From: Rhodospirillum sp. | Lineage (GTDB): Bacteria > Pseudomonadota > Alphaproteobacteria > Dongiales > Dongiaceae | Reading direction: 5' to 3' | DNA length: 64,000 nucleotides | Assembly (NCBI GenBank): GCA_013822765.1 | Contig: PNKY01000002.1 | Coordinates: 496,001 to 560,000 of the forward strand | Shown here: positions 42,892 to 55,204 of the stretch, piece by piece | Position numbering within the stretch: position 1 is the stretch's first letter | How the letters are laid out: each line of letters starts with the position of its first letter | Position numbers and translations under genes: made by a program | The notes under the pieces: model-generated | What the model was told of the DNA's origin: nothing | Database searches by the model: none | Seen by the model: the letters and a program-made list of their open reading frames with translations, nothing else

Positions 42892-43408
42892 CTGGCGCTT
42901 TGTCGGCGACGATGCGGCGATCCCGGCCGAGGAGCCGGTGACCGTCAGCCTCAAGCGCTGGCAGGCCGAGAACGAGGCGCTGCGTGGCCGCAACACGCCG
43001 ATTGGCGTGCGCCTGAAGAACGACGAGCAGGCGCTGGCGCTCGGCGACGACGTGCATCGCCTGTCGCTGATCGAGGTTGAGTTCCCGAAGTTCACCGACG
43101 GCCGCGCCTTCTCGCAGGCCCGTATCCTGCGCGATAAGCTCGGCTACCAGGGCGAACTGCGCGGCGTCGGCACCATCCTGCGCGACCAGTACCTCTACAT
43201 GACCCGCTGCGGCATCGACTCCGTGGAGCTGCTTGAGGGCAAGCCGATCGACGGCTACCTCGCCGCGCTCAAGGAATTCAGCGCCTGGTATCAGCCTGCG
43301 TCCGATGGCCGCGTGACGGTGCTGGAGCTGCGCCACCCCGCCAAGGCGTCCGCCCGCCGGAGCGGTGCGACTTTCATCAGCGAAAGCGTCGCGGCGCACT
43401 CAGCCTAG
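42854..43408 (+). CDS. DUF934 protein (sulfite reduction-associated)
   Basis: MALLQHGALQPNNWRFVGDD...LIEVEFPKFTDGRAFSQARILRDKLGYQGELRGVG; overlaps cysI end. Confidence 0.85.
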   Translation: MALLQHGALQPNNWRFVGDDAAIPAEEPVTVSLKRWQAENEALRGRNTPIGVRLKNDEQALALGDDVHRLSLIEVEFPKFTDGRAFSQARILRDKLGYQGELRGVGTILRDQYLYMTRCGIDSVELLEGKPIDGYLAALKEFSAWYQPASDGRVTVLELRHPAKASARRSGATFISESVAAHSA

Positions 43409-43409
43409 G

Positions 43410-44030
43410 GTGCACGCGTATCACGCGGTGCTCCGTTATCGACTGCTGCGCAGGAAAGACCTGCCATCCAACTCAATGGAGATGGCGCGGTTCCTGATTG
43501 GCAAGATTGTGGTGCGGGAGCATCCGGATGGCCGCGCCAGCGGCCGTATCGTCGAGACCGAAGCCTATCCGCCCGGTGACGCCAGCGGCCACGCATACGG
43601 CGGCGAGACTCCGGCCCGCCGCTCCCTGTTCCTGCGGCCGGGGCACGGCTATGTCTACATGGCGTATGGCTCTTGCTATTGCTTCAACGTGAGCAGCGAA
43701 CCCGCAGGCGTAGGCGCGGGCGTCCTGATCAGGGCGCTGGAGCCGCTGGAAGGGATTGCATTGATGCAGCGGCGGCGTGGAACGGACACGCTGCGCGACC
43801 TTGCGCGGGGTCCGGGGCGCCTGGCCGCCGCGCTTGCGATCGGCCGCGATCTCGACGGCATCGATCTCTGCGTCAAGGGTCCGTTGTGGCTTGCGCGCTC
43901 CGCACTGCCGACTGGTGCGGTCGCGAGCAGCGTGCGCATCGGCATCTCTCGGGAAGCGCACCGTCTGCGCCGCTTCCACGAACGCGGCAGTCCTTTCGTC
44001 AGCGGCACCCAGCGACTCAACGCGCGTTAA
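43410..44030 (+). CDS. DNA-3-methyladenine glycosylase (Mpg/AAG family)
   Basis: MARFLIGKIVVREHPDG...GRIVETEAYPPGDASGHAYGGETPARRSLFLRPGHGYVYMAYGSCYCFNVSS. Confidence 0.9.
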   Translation: MHAYHAVLRYRLLRRKDLPSNSMEMARFLIGKIVVREHPDGRASGRIVETEAYPPGDASGHAYGGETPARRSLFLRPGHGYVYMAYGSCYCFNVSSEPAGVGAGVLIRALEPLEGIALMQRRRGTDTLRDLARGPGRLAAALAIGRDLDGIDLCVKGPLWLARSALPTGAVASSVRIGISREAHRLRRFHERGSPFVSGTQRLNAR

Positions 44031-44267
44031 TCTCCACGCGTCCGACTGTGGCCACGCGCCGGACTTCTTGCCAAGCTCACACCACATAGAGCAGATGCGG
44101 CTGGCATGCCGGCCGTTGAGCGACGACGATCACTCTGCCGGCCACCTGTGCTTGACGGCCCCATGCTCCTGCGCAATGCTTTTGTCATACAGGGTTGCAC
44201 CTCACTCATTTTCGAGCTCGGGCTGATTTATCTTTCCCGCACAACATACTGCTGGGGGGTAGCCACT

Positions 44268-46766
44268 ATGGTCGGGTCAGGGGGAATCGCATTGGCGCGC
44301 GCCGCACTTGCCGCAGCGCTGTGCATCGTCGTTGCTGCTTGCGACAAGGCGGTCGAAGACGAGGCCACTGTCGCCGGTCTCACCGGAGAGAAATTTCCGC
44401 AGGCCGACGAAGACTACTTCAAGGACATGGACAACGGCATTGCGCTCACGCCGGACGAGGTCCAGGGGCGCAACATGTGGCTGGTGTGGAGCGGCGGAAA
44501 CGACCGCTTTTGGGACGGCATGGGCAAGCCGACCTTGGGCGGCTTCGATCTGCTGAAGATCGTCGCGCCGCCGCCGGGCAAGAAGATGGACCGGCAAGAC
44601 CGCTGGTACACGCTGGGCCTGGTCAACGAGCCGTGCTTCGACGGCGCGTCGCCGGACGGCGATCCATCGCGCTTCGGCCTCAGGCTCGATGTGCGGCGCG
44701 CCGACTGTCCGGCCGATCCGTTCGCCAATGCGCAGAAATATCCCGGCGTGAAGATCGGCGCGCGCGGCGCGACCTACAACGACGGCTCGGTCCTGCCGAT
44801 CGGGTCCTATTTCGGCGAGCCGACCGGCATCCTTGGCCTGCGTCTCTTCACCAATCCCGATTTCGACGAGGCGGCGAAGGCGAAGTGGGATGCGAAACGC
44901 TACTACACCGACCCCGCCTATTTCAGCGACCCCACGCTCATCAAGCCGTATCGCGTCGGCATGTCCTGCGGCTTCTGCCACGTCGGGCCGAGCCCGATCA
45001 ATCCGCCGGCCGATCCCGCCAACCCGCTGTTCGCCAACCTCAACTCGACGGTGGGCGCGCAATATATGTGGGTCGACCGGCTGTTCCTGGTCGAGCCCAA
45101 CAAGGCGAACTTCATGTACCAGCTGGTGCAGACCTATCGCCCGGGCGCGATGGATACTTCGCTGGTCTCCACCGACAACATCAACAACCCCCGCACCATG
45201 AACGCGGTCTATAGCCTCAAGGCCCGGATGGAGATGGCCAAGCGCATCGGCCACGAGGAGCTGAGTGGCGGTGAAAAGAACAACAGGCAGTTCAACGAAT
45301 TCATCGACTCCGGATTTCTAACCCAGTTCTTCAAGAGCCCAGACGAGGTGTGGACGCCGCGCGTCCTCAAGGACGGCTCTGACTCGGTCGGCGCCCTGGG
45401 GGCGCTCAACCGCGTCTATATCAACATCGGCCTCTACAGCGAGGAGTGGCTGCGGCATTTCAATGCCGTGGTAGGCGGCCAGCCGATCACGCCGATCGAG
45501 ATCGCGACCGCGCAGGAAAACTCGGCCTACTGGCGCGCGACCGAGCTCGGGACGCCTAAGACCGCCTTGTTCTTCCTCAAGGCCGCGCAGCCCGATCACC
45601 TGGCCGACGCGCCGGGCGGCCAAGCGTACCTTTCCGTCGACGATGCAACGCTGACGAAGGGCCGCGAGGTCTTCGCCAACACCTGCGCGCGCTGCCACTC
45701 CAGCAAGTCGCCACAGCCGCCGGACGACCTCGGCCTGGTCGACTGCAACGGCCCGAACTACATGCAGTGCTTCAAGAAGTGGTGGGCCTGGACTCAGACC
45801 GACGACTACAAGACCCAGATGCGCGCCATCGTCGATGCGCCCGACTTCCTCGCCGACAACTACCTGTCGACCGACGCGCGCATTCCGGTGACCCTGCTGC
45901 GCACCAACGTCTGCAGTCCGCTGGCCACCAATGCGCTCGAGGGCAACATCTGGAATGACTTCTCCTCAACCTCCTACAAGACGTTGCCCTCGGTCGGCTC
46001 GGTTACGCTGCAGGACCCGTTCGACGGCCACGGCTGGAGCTACGAACTGAAGGGTGGCGGCCGCGGCTACACGCGCGTCCCGTCGCTGACGTCGCTGTGG
46101 TCGACCGGTCCCTATCTGCTCAACAACACGGTCGGGCCATTCTCCCGCTATCCCTCGGTCGAGGAGCGGATGAAGGTGTTCGACGCCTCGATCAAGCAAA
46201 TGCTGTGGCCGGAAACCCGCGAGCGCGATGCGGAGCTGGGCGACAAGCTCGACGGCAAGATCGATCGCACGGACGAGCGCAGCTTCATCTTCATCCCGAG
46301 CTACTACGTCCAGAAGGTGCGGGAGCATGTCGGGCCGATCGCCCGGCGGATCATCGACAAGCGGCTGGACGAGGGTGGATTTGTCCAGCTTGGCCCGATC
46401 CCCAAGGGCACGCCGGTCAATCTGCTCGCGAATCTCCAGCCGCTCGCGGAATCCAGGACGCCGTCGGAGATCATCAAGCACTATGACGAACTGTTCGATC
46501 TGCTCGCGACCCTGAAGATCGACCTGGCGACCGACCCGAATACCGACGACGACAACGCGCTGCGCAAGCACTTCTCGGACGCGCGCGGCGGACTGATGGC
46601 GCTGAACAAGTGCCCGGACTTCGTGGTCAACCGAGGCCACTATTTCGGCACCGCCAAGTTCAACGAGACCGAAGGGCTGACCGAGGATGAGAAGGCCTAC
46701 GGGACGGAGCCGGTTCTCAGCGATGGCGACAAGAATGCCCTGATCGAGTTTCTCAAGACGCTCTGA
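44268..46766 (+). CDS. Large cytochrome c-type lipoprotein with two CXXCH motifs
   Basis: ATG at 44268: MVGSGGIALARAALAAALCIVVAAC lipobox; CGFCH and CARCH heme motifs. Confidence 0.8.
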   Translation: MVGSGGIALARAALAAALCIVVAACDKAVEDEATVAGLTGEKFPQADEDYFKDMDNGIALTPDEVQGRNMWLVWSGGNDRFWDGMGKPTLGGFDLLKIVAPPPGKKMDRQDRWYTLGLVNEPCFDGASPDGDPSRFGLRLDVRRADCPADPFANAQKYPGVKIGARGATYNDGSVLPIGSYFGEPTGILGLRLFTNPDFDEAAKAKWDAKRYYTDPAYFSDPTLIKPYRVGMSCGFCHVGPSPINPPADPANPLFANLNSTVGAQYMWVDRLFLVEPNKANFMYQLVQTYRPGAMDTSLVSTDNINNPRTMNAVYSLKARMEMAKRIGHEELSGGEKNNRQFNEFIDSGFLTQFFKSPDEVWTPRVLKDGSDSVGALGALNRVYINIGLYSEEWLRHFNAVVGGQPITPIEIATAQENSAYWRATELGTPKTALFFLKAAQPDHLADAPGGQAYLSVDDATLTKGREVFANTCARCHSSKSPQPPDDLGLVDCNGPNYMQCFKKWWAWTQTDDYKTQMRAIVDAPDFLADNYLSTDARIPVTLLRTNVCSPLATNALEGNIWNDFSSTSYKTLPSVGSVTLQDPFDGHGWSYELKGGGRGYTRVPSLTSLWSTGPYLLNNTVGPFSRYPSVEERMKVFDASIKQMLWPETRERDAELGDKLDGKIDRTDERSFIFIPSYYVQKVREHVGPIARRIIDKRLDEGGFVQLGPIPKGTPVNLLANLQPLAESRTPSEIIKHYDELFDLLATLKIDLATDPNTDDDNALRKHFSDARGGLMALNKCPDFVVNRGHYFGTAKFNETEGLTEDEKAYGTEPVLSDGDKNALIEFLKTL

Positions 46767-48619
46767 TGACGCCCGACTGCGACTACGTGATCGTTGGCTC
46801 GGGGGCGGGCGGGGGAACGCTGGCGGCGCGCCTGGCGGAGAGCGGCATGTGTGTTGTGCTGCTGGAAGCCGGCGGCGATCCTTGCGACAAGACCCAACCG
46901 CGTCTGCCGGAGGACTACGAGGTCCCGGCGTTCCATGCCTACGCCTCGGAGAATCCGGCGATGGCGTGGAACTTCCGGGTCGAGCATTACTCCGATCCGG
47001 CGATCGCCGCGCTCGATGAGAAGCGGGAGAAGGACGGCATCCTCTATCCCCGCGCCAGTGCCCTCGGCGGCTGCACCGCCCACAACGCGATGATCTTCAT
47101 GGCGGCCCACGATTCCGACTGGGACGGTCTCGCCGCCTTGACCGGCGATCCATCCTGGTCGGCGCGCGCTATGCAGCATTGGATGCGCCTGGTGGAGGAT
47201 TGCCGGCACCGCCCGGTCTGGCGCTTCCTGCGCTTGTTCGGCATCGACCCGACCAGGCACGGCTGGAACGGCTGGCTGCGGATCGAACGGTTCGAGCCGC
47301 AGCAAGCCCTCAGCGACCGCTGGCTGACCTGGAGCATGGCCGCCGGCGCGCTCGCGGCACTGCACGGCATGCCGGGCTGGCTGGGCGACCTGCTGCGCCT
47401 CATCACTGCCAAGGGCGATCCCAACGACGTTCGCACCGACGGCAAGGAGGGCATCTGGTATTCGCCGCTCTCCACCGCCAGCCACCGCCGCGTCGGTGCG
47501 CGCGAGCGCGTGCTGGACGTGGCGCAGCGGCATCCCGAGCGCCTGACCATCGAGCTCGACGCGCTGGCCACGCAGATCCTGTTCGAGGGCGGCCGTGCGG
47601 TCGGCGTCGAGTATCTGAAGGGGCGTCACCTCTACCGCGCCTCCGCCAATCCCTCCTCGGACGCCGGCGAGCGGCGCCGCGTCACGGCCCGGCGCGAGGT
47701 GATCGTATGCGGCGGCGCCTTCAACTCGCCGCAGCTGCTGATGCTGTCCGGCATCGGTCCACGCGCTGAGCTCGACAAGGCAGGTATCCCGGTCCGCGTC
47801 GATCTCTCCGGCGTCGGCCGCAACCTGCAGGACCGCTACGAGGTCGGCCTGGTCCACCGCATGAAAAAGCGCTGGAAGGCCCTTGAGGGCGCCGGTTTCG
47901 AGCGCGGCGATCCGCTGTTCCGAAAGTGGCAGCACGGTGGTCGCGGACTCTACGGCTCCAACGGCTCGGCGCTCACCGTCACGCGCCGGTCGCGCCAGAG
48001 CGACGGCGACGTCGACCTGTTCATGATGGGCATGCTGGCGAAGTTCAAGGGCTACTACACCGGCTATGCCGACAAGCTCTGGCGCGACGGCAATGGCCTT
48101 ACCTGGTGCGTGCTCAAGGGTCATACCCGCAACCGCAGCGGCACCGTGATGCTGCGCTCGGCTGATCCGCGCCAGCCGCCGCAGATCGACTTCAATTATT
48201 TCGCGGAAGGTGGCGATGCCGACCTTGCCGCCATGGTCGAGGCGGTCGAGATCGCGCGCGAGATCGCGCGGCCGCTGCGCGAGCGCGGCGTGGCGATCGA
48301 GGAGCTGCCCGGCATCGAGATGCAGGGCCAGCAACTGGCGCAGTGGATTCGCGCCAACGCCTGGGGGCATCATGCGTCCGGCACCTGCGCCATCGGCGCG
48401 CGCGCGGAGGGCGGCGTGGTCGACGGCGATTTCCGGGTCCATGGCGTCCAGGGGGTTCGCGTGGTCGATGCTTCGGTGTTTCCGCGCATCCCCGGATTCT
48501 TCATCGTCAGCGCGGTCTACATGATCGCGGAGAAGGCGGCGGCCGTCATCCTGGCGGACGCCGCGGCGGCTTCTGCGTCGCAGCGACCGGCGCGCATTCG
48601 CGAAGGAGCGATGCCATGA
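46766..48619 (+). CDS. GMC-family FAD oxidoreductase
   Basis: CDYVIVGSGAGGGTLAARLAESGMCVVLLEAGGD; GAFNSPQLLMLSGIGP; ATGA overlap with upstream cytochrome. Confidence 0.85.
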   Translation: MTPDCDYVIVGSGAGGGTLAARLAESGMCVVLLEAGGDPCDKTQPRLPEDYEVPAFHAYASENPAMAWNFRVEHYSDPAIAALDEKREKDGILYPRASALGGCTAHNAMIFMAAHDSDWDGLAALTGDPSWSARAMQHWMRLVEDCRHRPVWRFLRLFGIDPTRHGWNGWLRIERFEPQQALSDRWLTWSMAAGALAALHGMPGWLGDLLRLITAKGDPNDVRTDGKEGIWYSPLSTASHRRVGARERVLDVAQRHPERLTIELDALATQILFEGGRAVGVEYLKGRHLYRASANPSSDAGERRRVTARREVIVCGGAFNSPQLLMLSGIGPRAELDKAGIPVRVDLSGVGRNLQDRYEVGLVHRMKKRWKALEGAGFERGDPLFRKWQHGGRGLYGSNGSALTVTRRSRQSDGDVDLFMMGMLAKFKGYYTGYADKLWRDGNGLTWCVLKGHTRNRSGTVMLRSADPRQPPQIDFNYFAEGGDADLAAMVEAVEIAREIARPLRERGVAIEELPGIEMQGQQLAQWIRANAWGHHASGTCAIGARAEGGVVDGDFRVHGVQGVRVVDASVFPRIPGFFIVSAVYMIAEKAAAVILADAAAASASQRPARIREGAMP

Positions 48620-49803
48620 TCCTCAGAACCGCGCATGCCATCCTGGTGTTCTTCCTGCATCTCGAACGGCGCTTCGAACCGTTCTTCCGCTCCGGCCTCA
48701 ACTGGCTGCTGCGCGATCCAACGCGGGTCGTCCTCCAGTTTTTCTACAATCTCGGCCGCAAGAATGATGGACTCGGCCTCGCCCAGGAGAAGGTCGATCC
48801 GGATGAGGAGGCCAGCCTGCAGAGCATGATCGACTCCATGCGCGAGCATCTGCGCCAGGACTTCAAGCCGGGCGAGATGGAGCGCGCCGGCAATACCAAG
48901 ACCCACGGCCTGATGAAGGCGACCTTCACGGTGCACGACAAGCTGCCGGTTCATCTGCGCAAGGGCATTTTCGCCGAGCCCAAGACCTATCGCTGCTATG
49001 TGCGCTATTCCGGTCCGGGTCCGCATGTCGAGCCGGACATCGACGATGTCGGCTTCATCTCCATGGCGGTGAAGGTGCTGGGCGTGCCGGGTCCGAAGCT
49101 GATGGACGACGAGAAATTCACCCAGGACTTCACCAGCGTCAGCACCCCGACCTTCGTGACGCCCAACACGCGCTCCAACGCCAAGCTACAAGTGTGGAGC
49201 TGGCGGCATCTCCCGGTGTTCTACTTCTTTGATCCACGCGGCCCGACCGGCACGCACATCCTCGACTTCCTGATGCAGGGCCTGTGGAACGAGACGCAAT
49301 ACAACCCGCTCGGCCACGAGTTCTTCAGCTGCGTGCCGTACCTGATGGGCGAAGGCCAAGCGATGAAATACAGCTTCCGCTCCCTAACCAAGGTGCATCG
49401 CAAGATCCCGCGCGTGCCGTTCCGCCCGCCGGACAACTACCTGCGCGACAACATGCAGAAGACGCTCAACGAGCGCGACGTCGAGTTCTACATGGAGGTG
49501 CAGATGCAGACCGATCCGCACCGCATGCCGATCGAGGATGCGGGCGTCTATTGGTCGACGCGCGCGTCGCCGCGGATCCCGGTCGCCACCATCCGCATCC
49601 CGCGGCAGAAATTCGACAATCCGAAGCAGCTCGGATTCGCGCGCAACCTCACCATCAATCCCTGGCACTGCATCCCCGAGCATCGTCCGCTCGGCAACCA
49701 GAGCCGCGCCCGCCGCCGTATGTACGCGGACCTGGCTCGCTTCCGGCAGGCGCAGAACAAGGAGCAGCACATCGAGCCTACGGGGGACGAGGTGTTCGAG
49801 TGA
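48617..49803 (+). CDS. Catalase-related heme protein
   Basis: TKTHGLMKATFTVHDKLPVHLRKGIF...YRCYVRYSG...TQDFTSVSTPTF...NPWHCIPEHRPLGNQSRARRRMY: catalase-fold pattern, divergent; ATGCCATGA overlap with GMC gene. Confidence 0.75.
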
Positions 49804-49806
49804 GCG

Positions 49807-50232
49807 GTGACTCTCGTGCGATTTGACCCCGCGATCTTCATCGCTTCGCGCACCGAGACCACGAAGCAGATCCGCGTGGCCGGCGCGGTTCTCTTGATTC
49901 TGGCGCCGGTGCTGCTCGTGGGCGCCGCCGGTATCGTTTGGCTGCTCTTGGGAATTGGGATTCCAGCCGAATGGCTTCCCGAAGGAACCAGGATCGAAGG
50001 AACGCCAGGCGAGGGACTCGCGCCGATTCAGCGGATAGCTCTGTGGGGCCTCGCCTCGTTGTTCCTCGCTTGCGGCGCGGCGACGGTATTGCAGGGCTTC
50101 TGGCAGTTGTTCCTGGGGCGCAAGAACAAGTGGCTCCTGCGCGTCATCATTGCCGCGGCGGTCATCGTGGTTGTCGGCGGCGTCGCAGCCTCGATCTACA
50201 CGGGCTGCCCGATCGGGCGCATCTGTCAGTAG
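49807..50232 (+). CDS. Small integral membrane protein in the redox cluster
   Basis: 141 aa with several hydrophobic segments, 3 bp after the catalase-related gene. Confidence 0.6.
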   Translation: MTLVRFDPAIFIASRTETTKQIRVAGAVLLILAPVLLVGAAGIVWLLLGIGIPAEWLPEGTRIEGTPGEGLAPIQRIALWGLASLFLACGAATVLQGFWQLFLGRKNKWLLRVIIAAAVIVVVGGVAASIYTGCPIGRICQ

Positions 50233-50237
50233 CGGGC

Positions 50238-51740
50238 CTAGCGGTCGGCCAGCAGCCAATCCAGTGCGCGCAGTCCTGGCAGGAAAAAGTACGCGCCACC
50301 CACCACCGTCACGAATTGCGGCAGGCTCGAGCTGACCAGGCACGGCCCATCCACGGCGGGACGTGTGAAACGGTCGTTGGGCTGTGTGCCGGGGAAGGGC
50401 GCGCGGTTGCCGAGCAGCGGGTCCTGCTCGTTGCTCATGCCGGCGAACTTGGCGCTTGCCATCCATGCGCCCTGCACGAACTCGAACTGCCGGGCAGGGT
50501 TCGCGTTCAGGCACAGGAAGTGCAGGCCGCTCTGCGGGTCCGGCGCGTCGGGCTTGACGGCGTCATGGCGGTCCAGCCAGCGGCCGTACTCGCGGCCGCG
50601 CCGCAGGATGCGGTGGAAGCGGGCCGAGGCGATGCGGTCTTCCTCCGCCGAGCCGGTCAGGCCGAACAACATCAACAGCTTCTTGATGAGCCCGGTGCGG
50701 CCGGTCGGATAGTCGCCGGTGCGCGGGTTGGCGCGCCGGATGTGGGCGCCGATCGGGCAGACCTGGCCCGAGCGGTCGCTCATATAGGTAAAGTCGTTGC
50801 GCGCCACGCCCGGCTTGTTGCGGATGCCGGGGATGTCCGTCTGGCCCAGCGCGGCAAAGGGCTCGCCGTCGATGTGGCGGCCGACCATCGCCTCGGACAA
50901 TGAAACCGCCGCCGGATCGCCATCGCTCGCGCGCTGCAGCCAGCGCCAGAAGCCGCGCACGTCCTGGTGCAGCTGGCGGAACACCAGGTAGCTGCCGTTG
51001 CGCCCGAGGTCGCGCATTGCCGGCTCGTCCTCGGCGGCGGGCAACGACGCGGCGCCGGGCGCGCTCGCGTTGAGCAATGGGCGATCGGTGTAGAGGCCGT
51101 ACTCGTTGGCATAGCCGAGCAGGAACTCGCCGGTGGCGATCAGGTTGTGGAACGCCATGTCGGCATCGGAGCCGGGCGTGCGCTCGGTCTTCCAGTCGAT
51201 CGCCGGCTGCGACGCGCCATCGACAAAACCGAACGGCTCGCGATCGCCCATGTCGCCGCTGTCGAGGATCTGCGGCTCCCAGAAGCCGGCGGCGCGGGCC
51301 TCCTTGGCCAGCACTTCGGCCATCGACCTGATCTGCTCGCTCTCGTCGAACACCGCCAGCAGCACATGCGGCTCGCGCGCGCCGCTGCCCCAGGCCCAAT
51401 TGGCGGGGTCGTTGGCGCCGGTATCGCCGAGGCGCCGGGAGCGGCTGGGGTCTTCCGCCAGCCCTACGACGAACTCCGGTGCGAACTGCTCCACGAGATC
51501 ATCCGCGATTCGCAGCGCGCGCAGGCCGGCCGCGGTGAAGGCCATCTGGCGCGCATGGGTCAACCGCTTTCCGCCGCCGATCTGGCTGAACCGTGTCACG
51601 CCGGAACCCTGGCTGCGAAGCCAGGCGCGCGCCCGGCCAACGTCGGCGATCCGCAGCAGCAGGTAGCAGCAATAGAGATCGTCGAAGCCGGTCTTGAGCA
51701 GGGCCTGGGTGTCGACTGCGTCGTCGGGCGTGAAGGCCAT
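50238..51740 (-). CDS. DyP-type peroxidase
   Basis: EPFGFVDGASQP (GxxDG motif) and CPIGAHIRRANPR proximal-His block; ATG at 51740. Confidence 0.85.
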   Translation of the reverse strand: MAFTPDDAVDTQALLKTGFDDLYCCYLLLRIADVGRARAWLRSQGSGVTRFSQIGGGKRLTHARQMAFTAAGLRALRIADDLVEQFAPEFVVGLAEDPSRSRRLGDTGANDPANWAWGSGAREPHVLLAVFDESEQIRSMAEVLAKEARAAGFWEPQILDSGDMGDREPFGFVDGASQPAIDWKTERTPGSDADMAFHNLIATGEFLLGYANEYGLYTDRPLLNASAPGAASLPAAEDEPAMRDLGRNGSYLVFRQLHQDVRGFWRWLQRASDGDPAAVSLSEAMVGRHIDGEPFAALGQTDIPGIRNKPGVARNDFTYMSDRSGQVCPIGAHIRRANPRTGDYPTGRTGLIKKLLMLFGLTGSAEEDRIASARFHRILRRGREYGRWLDRHDAVKPDAPDPQSGLHFLCLNANPARQFEFVQGAWMASAKFAGMSNEQDPLLGNRAPFPGTQPNDRFTRPAVDGPCLVSSSLPQFVTVVGGAYFFLPGLRALDWLLADR

Positions 51741-51745
51741 GGCCG

Positions 51746-53020
51746 TCAGATCTCCGCCAGCCAGCGCCGCGCCTCGTCGTCGCTCAGGTGGGATTTCTCC
51801 AGCCCCTGGCGGATGCGGGCGTTGCGCGCCAGGTCGGCGTTGGTGAGGCCGGGATAGGCCTTGTACCAGACGTCGGTCTTGACCTGCCGGCGGTGCAGGA
51901 AGTGCTTGAACATCTGCTCGCGCCACGCGCCGCGGTGCACCAGATAGTCGGTCGGCGGATAGGCGATGCCGTTGGAGAACACCAGGTTGAGCCCGAACGC
52001 CACCTTGTTGATGAAGTCGTCCATGTAGCTTTCCAGGCTGCCGTCGTAGTTGCTGGCGAAGAACACACGGCGATTGTCGTCCAGCAGGACCCAGCGCGCG
52101 AAATGGATGGTACTGACCCGCGCCAGCCGCCCGCGATTATAGAGGAAGATCGCCGACAGCCCGACGGCGCGCAGCGCGACCACGGTGATGGCAAGGCGGA
52201 ACCAGCCCGGCTTCAGCGAACCGATTGCGCTGAAAGGATTGGTCACATCGCGGTCCTCGTCGATCGCGATGGCGCGGGTGTAGGCGGCGTTCACCCGCTT
52301 GCGGGTCACCGGATCGGTGGTCTCGGCGCGCCGCAGCATGAGCAGGAAGAAGGGTGCAACGATGATCGTTGGAATGAACAGGAGAATGGCCAGGATCAGC
52401 AGGCCGACGATGCTGAGAATGAAGCCGATCCACTGGCCCAAGGTCCGCGGTTCCAGTGGCGTCAACCTCGGCCCATTGGCCATCGCCGCGCGCAGCTTGG
52501 CATGCAGCTGCCGCGCATCGCGCTCGCTCATGCCGGCGAGCGCGACCCGCAACGCCTCGTGCAGGGCCGCTTCCTCGCGCACTTGGCGGACGGTGCGGCC
52601 GATCCAGTTGACATAGATCGCCGTCGGCGGCGTCTGATGCGCGCGCATCCAGGCGAGCAGATCGGCGCGCGCGTCGAAGTCGTCGCAATGGGCGAAGATA
52701 TCGCGCAGGCCGTTGCCGGCTTCGGCGGCGATCCTCGCCAGCAGCGCGTCGCCCGGGCCGTCGCAATCCGCCAGGAAGATGAGCAGAACGCGCTCAGTTG
52801 CCGGCAGGCCGGGAAAGGCCGTGCGGTCGTCCAGCGTCTGATCGTCCGCGATCACGAAGCGCGCGACGTGGAGCGTGTCGAACCGGCCGAACGGGACCAG
52901 CCCGTTCATCGGATCGACCATGCCCGGTCCGCTGTTCATGGTGGCGAGCAGGTCGCGCAGGTCCTGCACCCGGTCCGGCCGGACCGGAGCGGTCACCATG
53001 AAGTGCCCCTGGGTGATCAA
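51746..53020 (-). CDS. Uncharacterised membrane-anchored protein upstream of DyP peroxidase
   Basis: 424 aa; central hydrophobic helices WIGFILSIVGLLILAILLFIPTIIVAPFFLLML; 5 bp upstream of the DyP ATG. Confidence 0.65.
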   Translation of the reverse strand: MITQGHFMVTAPVRPDRVQDLRDLLATMNSGPGMVDPMNGLVPFGRFDTLHVARFVIADDQTLDDRTAFPGLPATERVLLIFLADCDGPGDALLARIAAEAGNGLRDIFAHCDDFDARADLLAWMRAHQTPPTAIYVNWIGRTVRQVREEAALHEALRVALAGMSERDARQLHAKLRAAMANGPRLTPLEPRTLGQWIGFILSIVGLLILAILLFIPTIIVAPFFLLMLRRAETTDPVTRKRVNAAYTRAIAIDEDRDVTNPFSAIGSLKPGWFRLAITVVALRAVGLSAIFLYNRGRLARVSTIHFARWVLLDDNRRVFFASNYDGSLESYMDDFINKVAFGLNLVFSNGIAYPPTDYLVHRGAWREQMFKHFLHRRQVKTDVWYKAYPGLTNADLARNARIRQGLEKSHLSDDEARRWLAEI

Positions 53021-53042
53021 TCGCCAGCCCGGTCGAAGCCGG

Positions 53043-53480
53043 TCAGGACTTGAATTCGAGCGCGAAGTCGATCAGGCGCGACTTGTTCCAGTAGACCTTG
53101 CCGAGATAGACGTTCGGCGCGATCAGGCGGATCTCGTCGCGGATCCACTGCGCCACCATCGAGGTCTCGGAGTAATCGAGGACGATGCATTCCTTCTGGT
53201 CGAGCCAGCTCGGCGCCTTGTAGACCTTGGCGACGATCGCGTTGAGCCCGAACGGCAGGATGCGGTTGCGCAGGGTTCCGCTCGCGGCGTCGAACACCTT
53301 GCCCTGCCAGGCGAAGATGTTAACCAGCTTGGCGATCTCGTCGCTGAAATTGGTGCCGGGCGCCACGATCGCCGTGCCGTCGGCCGGGCCGTTCGGGATG
53401 GGGCCGGCCTCCTTCGCGCTGAACAACGCATCCAGCTCGGCCTGCGACTTAGTCAGAAGCTGTTTGATGGTCTCGCTCAT
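53043..53480 (-). CDS. Uncharacterised small soluble protein of the redox cluster
   Basis: 145 aa; beta-rich second half ECIVLDYSETSMVAQWIRDEIRLIAPNVYLGKVYW; short gap to next gene. Confidence 0.65.
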   Translation of the reverse strand: MSETIKQLLTKSQAELDALFSAKEAGPIPNGPADGTAIVAPGTNFSDEIAKLVNIFAWQGKVFDAASGTLRNRILPFGLNAIVAKVYKAPSWLDQKECIVLDYSETSMVAQWIRDEIRLIAPNVYLGKVYWNKSRLIDFALEFKS

Positions 53481-53725: not shown

Positions 53726-55204
53726 CTAGTCCCCGAACAGGGATGGTTCCTGCTCCTTTCCGGTGCCCCTGCCTGAAATGCGCTGATAGGCGGCGAGCGC
53801 CGCCTGTCGCGCCTTGGCGTGATCCACGATGGGCAGCGGATAGGTCTGTCCGAGCGTTACGCCGGCGGCCGACAATTGGGCCTTCTGCGCGGTCCAGGGC
53901 TGGTGGATCGCGCCATCGGACAGTTTCGCCAGCTCCGGCACCCATTCCCGCACATAAGCGCCCCTGGGGTCGAACTTCTCGCCCTGCAGCACCGGGTTGA
54001 ACACGCGGAAGAACGGGGCGGCGTCGGCGCCGCAACCGGCGACCCATTGCCAGTTGCCGCCGTTCTGCGCCGGATCGGCATCGACCAGGGTGTCCCAGAA
54101 CCATTCCTCCCCGCGCTGCCAGGGAATCAGCAGATCCTTCACCAGGAACGAGGCCACGATCATGCGCACGCGATTATGCATCCAGCCGGTTTGCCAAAGC
54201 TGGCGCATGCCGGCATCGACGATCGGGTATCCGGTCTGGCCTCGCTGCCACGCGCGCAACAGCGCGGGATGATCCTTGGCGGGAAAGGCAGTGAACTTCG
54301 CCTGCATCGGTTGCCAGGTGAGATCCGGGAAATCGTGCAGCAGATGCATGTTGAAGTCGCGCCAGGCGATCTCGCGAACAAAGGGCAGGGCCTTGTCGCC
54401 GAGCCTGCGCGTGAGGTGGCGCCAGATCGCATGCACGCTGATCTCGCCCCAGGCGAGATGCGGCGACAGGCGTGACGTTCCGTCCCGATCGGGACGATCG
54501 CGCTCGGTCGCATAGCCCGCCGCGAGTTCGTCCGCGAAATGCGCGAGGCGCTGCTGCGCCGCGTGTTCGCCGGGCTCCCAGGCCCGCGCGATGGATTGCG
54601 TCCATGATTCGGTGACCTGCAAGGTGTCAAGCGGCACGCTCTCCGGCCAATGTGCAGGACCCTCGAGGCGCTTCGGCATGCGCAGTTCGGTCAGTGGTGT
54701 GTAGACGCCGCGCAGCCGGTTCCAGAACGGCGTGAACACCTTGAAGCCGCCACCGCTCGCCGTCCGCAGATGAAGCGGATCGTGCAGGTAGTTGGCATCG
54801 AACGTCTCGACGCCGATGCCGCGTTGCCGCAGCCAGCCAATCAGCGCCGCATCATCGCCGGCGTCGTCGCGACGGAGATTGAAGTAGACCGAGCGCGCGC
54901 CGGTTTCCGTCAGCAGCGAGTCCAGCTCCGCTTGCGGCGACCCCTGTCGGACGATCAATCTTGAGCCGAGCGCGCGCAGAGAGTCATCGAGCGCCACGAG
55001 CGATCGACCGCGCCACCAGCGGGCAGCACCGCCCGGACGGCGCGCCGATTCCTGGCCGTCGTCGTCGACGTAAACCGGGAGCACCGCCGCGTCGGCCGAG
55101 GAAGCCGCGGATAGAGCAGCGTTGTCGGCGATTCGCAGATCGCGCCGAAACCACACGATTCCCAGGGCTTTCTGTGGCCTCTCCGATGTCACGCTTGCAC
55201 TCAC
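53726..55204 (-). CDS. phrB: Deoxyribodipyrimidine photolyase
   Basis: IVWFRRDLRIADNAALSAA; WMHNRVRMIVASFLVKDLLIPWQRGEEWFWDTLVDADPAQNGGNWQWVAGCG. Confidence 0.95.
   Translation of the reverse strand: MSASVTSERPQKALGIVWFRRDLRIADNAALSAASSADAAVLPVYVDDDGQESARRPGGAARWWRGRSLVALDDSLRALGSRLIVRQGSPQAELDSLLTETGARSVYFNLRRDDAGDDAALIGWLRQRGIGVETFDANYLHDPLHLRTASGGGFKVFTPFWNRLRGVYTPLTELRMPKRLEGPAHWPESVPLDTLQVTESWTQSIARAWEPGEHAAQQRLAHFADELAAGYATERDRPDRDGTSRLSPHLAWGEISVHAIWRHLTRRLGDKALPFVREIAWRDFNMHLLHDFPDLTWQPMQAKFTAFPAKDHPALLRAWQRGQTGYPIVDAGMRQLWQTGWMHNRVRMIVASFLVKDLLIPWQRGEEWFWDTLVDADPAQNGGNWQWVAGCGADAAPFFRVFNPVLQGEKFDPRGAYVREWVPELAKLSDGAIHQPWTAQKAQLSAAGVTLGQTYPLPIVDHAKARQAALAAYQRISGRGTGKEQEPSLFGD

Follow-up and report, generated by a model that had tools for sequence, protein, structure and literature searches.

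Enzymes that rearrange fatty acid hydroperoxides or split them are known from two protein folds, the P450s and the catalase-related proteins (PMC13049297, PMC10813956, PMC5617202). In Nostoc punctiforme, a linoleate 10S-dioxygenase has been described together with a catalase-related 10S-hydroperoxide lyase (Brash et al. 2014, via PMC9410191, PMC13049297); as far as these secondary accounts go, a bacterial heme dioxygenase is paired there with a catalase-related protein, and a lipoxygenase is not involved. Equally, in corals the allene oxide synthase (cAOS) or hydroperoxide lyase (cHPL) is fused to a lipoxygenase (PMC5617202), and in fungi a peroxidase-type heme domain is joined to an atypical P450 in the DOX-CYP fusions (PMC13049297). 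The tandem proteins PA2077/PA2078 of Pseudomonas aeruginosa, a fatty acid dioxygenase and a diol synthase (FadCcp) acting as oleate diol synthase, are exported di-heme members of the CcpA/RoxA superfamily (PMC4496055). The locus analysed here resembles each of these systems in part. It shares with Nostoc punctiforme a catalase-related protein and a candidate heme dioxygenase; however, the Nostoc dioxygenase is, in the same secondary accounts, a cyclooxygenase relative, whereas the candidates here are a RoxA-superfamily cytochrome or a DyP-type peroxidase with its partner p424, accompanied by a GMC-family flavoprotein and the small protein p145.

The locus consists of seven genes (Table 1) within the window, that is, the whole stretch of 64,000 nucleotides of DNA that was analysed. 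The preliminary description had reported seven open reading frames with tight junctions on the plus strand, headed by a lipoprotein with two CXXCH motifs. Re-derivation of the coordinates returned the same positions, with a 1-bp overlap between the cytochrome stop and the GMC start, a 4-bp overlap at the junction of the GMC and catalase-like genes and a 3-bp gap before the gene for the 141-aa protein, and equally recovered the lipobox and both heme motifs. The cytochrome length of 886 aa given there has to be revised, as this figure belongs to a longer reading frame from 44106. On the minus strand, p424 is located 5 bp upstream of DyP, and the 3′ ends of the convergent DyP and 141-aa genes are 5 bp apart. 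Searches of Pfam and NCBIfam with the catalase-like protein, p424 and p145 gave nothing above cut-off, and no paralogue of the cytochrome or the catalase-like gene was found in the host genome. A role in anti-phage defence was considered and rejected, with none of the seven proteins matching in a PADLOC search. Literature searches for this gene cluster found no description; each enzyme family is already known, while the combination and the two families p424 and p145 are not described in the literature found.

Table 1. Genes of the locus, with positions in the window.
Feature	Position	Strand	Basis or remark
Di-heme c-type cytochrome, predicted lipoprotein, 832 aa	44268-46766	+	Lipobox VAAC; CXXCH at residues 234 and 473
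GMC-family flavoprotein, 617 aa	46766-48619	+	Strong Pfam match
Catalase-related hemoprotein, 395 aa, allene-oxide-synthase/hydroperoxide-lyase-like	48616-49803	+	Profile match to coral cAOS and MAP-2744c
141-aa membrane protein, GTG start	49807-50232	+	Accessory to this genome, outside the conserved cassette
DyP-type heme peroxidase, 500 aa	50238-51740	-	NCBIfam and solved DyP structures
p424, 424-aa protein, family without annotation	51746-53020	-	Two ABM-like ferredoxin-fold domains and a long hydrophobic helix (predicted)
p145, 145-aa protein, family without annotation	53043-53480	-	Predicted calycin/FABP-like beta barrel

Conservation of the gene neighbourhood was assessed by scanning a cytochrome alignment against 85,488 species genomes, which gave 431 relatives, of which the best 80 loci were kept. 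Among these best 80 of 431, a GMC gene occurs within 10 kb of the cytochrome in 78 loci, p145 in 65, p424 in 57, the catalase-like gene in 56 and DyP in 53, all of these counts being lower bounds with some contigs ending early. The loci span Pseudomonadota, Acidobacteriota and one myxobacterium and show two layouts. That of the window, with cytochrome-GMC-catalase facing DyP-p424-p145, is found in Novosphingobium, Rhizobium, Acidisoma and Caulobacteraceae, and an arrangement of all six genes on one strand (cytochrome-GMC-p145-p424-DyP-catalase) in Variovorax, Rhizobacter, Leptothrix and others. In the 50 loci with all six genes, the pairwise correlation of distance matrices ranges from r 0.76 to 0.95, values which are inflated by shared descent. 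Equally, a sample of the class comprising 246 genomes contains the cytochrome in five and p145 in three, all three within those five. Given this synteny and co-variation across several phyla, it is nearly certain that the cytochrome, GMC, catalase-related, DyP, p424 and p145 genes form one conserved cassette. The preliminary description had united both strands into one unit of seven genes, and had named a lack of two-strand synteny in related genomes as what would speak against it; the gene-neighbourhood search found synteny for six of the genes, and the unit stands for these. The 141-aa membrane protein, on the other hand, has no relative in any of the best 80 of 431 loci and drops out. No regulator or transporter is conserved beside the cassette loci, where LysR and ABC genes are scattered at positions that are not conserved. 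A relative of p145 was also observed in Nocardia farcinica (L019:7001-7381), with the other cassette genes absent within 7 kb.

For the catalase-related hemoprotein, a PDB search with the single sequence gave no match and a profile was needed. The profile of 37 orthologues matched the allene oxide synthase of corals (E 1e-4) as well as the fusion of this enzyme with lipoxygenase, MAP-2744c gave a weak match, and neither a true catalase in the PDB nor a Pfam catalase was matched. The earlier designation as catalase-related is thus upheld by profile, with single-sequence, Pfam and NCBIfam searches having returned nothing above cut-off. The proximal residues R366, Y370 and R377 as well as T96 are invariant in 37 of 37 orthologues, and we take R349, the proximal arginine of cAOS, to be the counterpart of R366. 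The R-x3-Y-x6-R spacing equals that of cAOS R349/Y353/R360, and T96 resembles cAOS T66 (PMC5617202 for Y353, R360 and T66). The coral fusions (PMC5617202) thereby share with the cassette protein the Thr before the distal position and the proximal motif; they differ in that the cassette comes without a lipoxygenase, that the distal His is not invariant and that only short profile stretches align. At distal position 97, His is found in 27, Gln in 8 and Tyr in 2 of the 37 orthologues, and there is no clear Asn at the place expected from cAOS, where the alignment register is uncertain. The loss of the distal His in 10 of 37 orthologues argues against catalase activity, and ordinary catalase function appears unlikely for the members concerned. 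By sequence, the protein is of the allene-oxide-synthase type and not a true catalase; a catalase of the KatA/KatE type was rejected, given the lack of similarity to solved catalases by profile and the variable distal His.

The DyP peroxidase falls below the Pfam cut-off, but NCBIfam and comparison with solved DyP structures identify it clearly. D174 (the Asp of GXXDG), R255 and R288 (including the distal Arg) and H333 (the proximal His) are invariant in 30 orthologues; the protein keeps the full peroxidase site and may simply consume peroxide. The AlphaFold model of p424 (pLDDT 89) shows two ABM-like ferredoxin domains linked by a long hydrophobic helix, with a Foldseek match to WhiE-ORFI (9lmn). 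Outside the cassette, p424 lies beside or is fused to DyP in every locus examined, and the two form a unit. An even sampling of the phylum (399 genomes) yielded 23 with p424, and 20 loci were fetched; a P450 is fused or adjacent in 12 of these, a catalase-related protein in 6, neither in 2 and both in none. Within the cassette loci (best 80 of 431 relatives), a P450 is present in a single locus of 80 and is by its coordinates not beside DyP. As the DyP tree requires at least two changes for the catalase label and four for the P450 label, the third partner of p424-DyP has been exchanged more than once, that is, at least twice. Of the 18 linked P450s, 17 have lost the acid in the acid-alcohol pair of the I-helix, with Pro as the most frequent replacement. 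Some P450s rearrange hydroperoxides without redox partners, and the acid-less P450s are consistent with such a reaction (PMC13049297, PMC10813956). The bacterial P450-p424-DyP fusions of about 1,410-1,640 aa recall the fungal DOX-CYP fusions (PMC13049297) in joining a peroxidase-type heme domain to an atypical P450, although DyP is not a cyclooxygenase-like DOX domain and a catalase-related protein replaces the P450 in the cassette. The host genome itself contains a second p424-DyP locus, in which a GST-domain P450 is followed by a 1013-aa p424-DyP fusion (G000:C19 ~44040-49060; L118:6042-11062, minus strand), this P450 being the one of the 18 that keeps the acid. In loci L150 and L151, p145-catalase-p424-DyP is found without cytochrome-GMC; in L150, a 911-aa reading frame matches both the catalase-related and the DyP profile and is apparently a fusion.

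The cytochrome is best placed as a distant member of the RoxA/MauG/CcpA superfamily, on a distinct branch and not a RoxA. Its three candidate axial heme ligands, His 238, 477 and 791, are invariant in 33 homologues. A PDB search with the single sequence gave no match, and a profile was again required: one of six sequences matched RoxA (4b2n) weakly (E 3e-4) in three collinear pieces; a larger alignment did not strengthen this match, RoxA not being among the hits shown. Profile-profile comparison with the RoxA-like neighbours described below gave 97.5% probability over the C-terminal heme domain. Compared by the motifs of RoxA (PMC6311187), the cytochrome has both CXXCH motifs and the distal axial His that RoxA carries at its C-terminal heme as H641 (here H238, H477 and H791, respectively), with H791 aligning to the C-terminal GHxF motif of RoxA. 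The MauG motif PY(F/L)HN, on the other hand, reads PYLLNN in the window, the His being replaced by Leu618 in 30 of 33 homologues and kept in 2. The RoxA-like cytochrome domain PF21419 is not matched by the cytochrome, whereas the companion cytochromes in L014 do match. Equally, the di-heme cytochrome c peroxidase family is matched only weakly (NCBIfam), and the di-heme peroxidase family NF040606 has no match in the host genome. The heme motifs are 239 residues apart, compared to 199 in RoxA and to 245 and 235 in PA2077 and PA2078 (PMC4496055). The cytochrome thus resembles the diol synthase proteins in superfamily, predicted export and heme-motif distance, a comparison made by heme spacing and not by alignment, and differs in its 832 aa versus about 630 and in the absent MauG-motif His.

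Eight loci (L009, L010, L013, L014, L040, L046, L083 and L096) carry a pair of RoxA-like cytochromes, and catalase-p424-DyP is absent in all eight. The catalase-like gene is found in none of these eight loci versus 56 of the 76 others (Fisher 7e-5, a count that ignores shared ancestry). The pair stands in place of catalase-p424-DyP, recalling the tandem arrangement of PA2077/PA2078 (PMC4496055). In two distant relatives (L009:6557-13053, L010:3713-11827), the cytochrome is accompanied by two RoxA-like cytochromes and by a p145-like protein that is larger and apparently carries a signal sequence; these loci have no GMC, DyP or catalase and are possibly an all-periplasmic version.

In the GMC flavoprotein, both Pfam domains of the family and the FAD-binding Rossmann motif are present. 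H535/H536 are invariant and the second catalytic Asn/His is replaced by Phe579 in 19 of 19 sequences, a loss which renders ordinary alcohol oxidation uncertain; the protein still belongs to the GMC fold but may not be an alcohol oxidase of the usual kind. Cytochrome and GMC are the tightest pair (r 0.95), adjacent in most loci and in several present without other cassette genes. On Rhizobium and Sinorhizobium plasmids the pair occurs with two RoxA-like cytochromes, a relative of old yellow enzyme and a patatin, and on a Mesorhizobium plasmid a 1562-aa fusion of GMC and patatin-like lipase directly follows the cytochrome (L020:9786-14471). Among the best 80 of 431 relatives, a patatin-like lipase lies near the cytochrome in 7 loci and a Tle1-like (DUF2235) lipase in 5, and in L114 a patatin adjoins p424-DyP. 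The model of p145 (pLDDT 82) is a small barrel that best resembles 4mve (TM 0.67), a structure whose function is not known; its FABP-like structure matches are individually weak (E above 0.1), and a PDB search with a p145 profile returned nothing.

Taken together, there is about an even chance that the cassette is a membrane-associated, oxylipin-like lipid-oxidation system with a role in lipid-hydroperoxide metabolism. This is the best reading since the two hydroperoxide-converting folds alternate beside DyP-p424, lipases are nearby and a lipoxygenase is absent in 18 of 20 genomes. The preliminary description had considered an oxidative pathway on lipid or aromatic substrates, of which the lipid direction gains ground, given that the catalase-related protein has coral allene oxide synthase as its nearest match and that lipase genes recur. 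Its statement that the window lacks a lipoxygenase gene extends to the whole host genome, where a lipoxygenase hidden elsewhere was searched for and none was found; the two lipoxygenases among the 20 cluster genomes lie outside the fetched cluster loci. We infer substrate, reaction order, enzyme location and the hydroperoxide-forming heme protein as follows. The lipid that the six-gene cassette oxidises via a hydroperoxide would most likely be an unsaturated fatty acyl chain. O2 would be put into the chain by a heme enzyme, the candidates being the exported cytochrome and, at the inner membrane, DyP together with p424. The hydroperoxide might then be rearranged or cleaved by the catalase-related protein, as by an allene oxide synthase or hydroperoxide lyase, and the GMC flavoprotein would oxidise the resulting alcohol or aldehyde; p145, whose FABP-like predicted fold was counted for this reading, would carry the lipid and p424 hold DyP at the membrane. 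Attachment of c-type heme requires export of the cytochrome. The GMC, DyP, catalase-related and p145 proteins show no signal peptide by eye, so that one linear pathway would need the lipid to cross the membrane. Against this reading speak also the Leu at the MauG-motif position where RoxA and the fatty-acid enzymes keep His, the missing second catalytic residue of GMC, the full peroxidase site of DyP, and the restriction of lipases to a minority of loci. A more specific, lipoxygenase-free oxylipin version, in which membrane-held DyP-p424 forms the hydroperoxide and passes its product to an interchangeable catalase-related protein or acid-less P450, is conceivable but on the unlikely side.

The preliminary description had cast the cytochrome as a putative electron acceptor; in the di-heme peroxidase/RoxA superfamily, to which it belongs, the known members act as oxygenases or peroxidases themselves. 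Among alternative readings, the target of the cassette might be a hydrophobic hydrocarbon such as an isoprenoid, in which the exported cytochrome would cut a double bond much as RoxA cleaves rubber, with GMC, catalase-related protein and DyP processing the aldehydes and peroxides. The collinear match to RoxA and the true RoxA-like proteins (PF21419) adjoining the cytochrome in several loci agree with such a cleavage; but with a weak match that a larger alignment did not strengthen, with PF21419 unmatched and the MauG-motif His lost in the cytochrome itself, and with no isoprenoid degradation genes recurring near the cassette, we consider it improbable, and the exchange of catalase-related protein for acid-less P450 fits lipid hydroperoxides better. 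Alternatively, peroxide or lipid peroxide might be detoxified by a periplasmic di-heme cytochrome peroxidase, with DyP and the catalase-like protein acting inside and GMC supplying reductant, as the intact catalytic residues of DyP and the weak peroxidase-family match of the cytochrome would allow. GMC oxidases, however, produce rather than remove H2O2, the catalase-like members devoid of the distal His are unlikely ordinary catalases and neither a regulator of oxidative stress nor a further scavenging gene is found repeatedly at the cluster, which leaves detoxification a low probability.

The tightness of the cytochrome-GMC pair (78 of the best 80 of 431 loci, the 1-bp overlap, the highest r) can also be seen in the light of electron transfer, with GMC as a dehydrogenase from which the cytochrome receives electrons, comparable to the FAD-dependent sugar and alcohol dehydrogenases of membranes, and with p145-p424-DyP-catalase carried along as a separate module. 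That either part occurs without the other, the pair in several loci and the remainder in L150 and L151, is in line with two modules. Yet a GMC protein lacking a signal peptide, with no Tat-bearing small subunit seen, would be on the opposite side of the membrane from the cytochrome, which at roughly 90 kDa is of the CcpA/RoxA type and not a small electron carrier, and this arrangement is distinctly improbable.

If the lipid-hydroperoxide reading is right, the cassette would give common bacteria from soil and from plants (Variovorax, Rhizobium, Novosphingobium, Cupriavidus and Acidobacteriota) a way to oxidised fatty acids that has not been described, and would place the two unannotated families p424 and p145 in a functional context. 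Little is known of the physiological substrates of DyP peroxidases; one group of them would equally gain a natural role, and the P450s and catalase-related proteins would form a set whose members evolution exchanges for one another. Should DyP-p424 indeed act first, the dioxygenase-plus-isomerase design of fungi and corals would have evolved independently once more. In the window, the cassette is bordered by a probable 3-methyladenine-DNA glycosylase gene (43365-44030, plus strand) and, on its other side, by a photolyase-like gene (53726-55204, minus strand), both of which look, from translations read by eye, like DNA repair genes.
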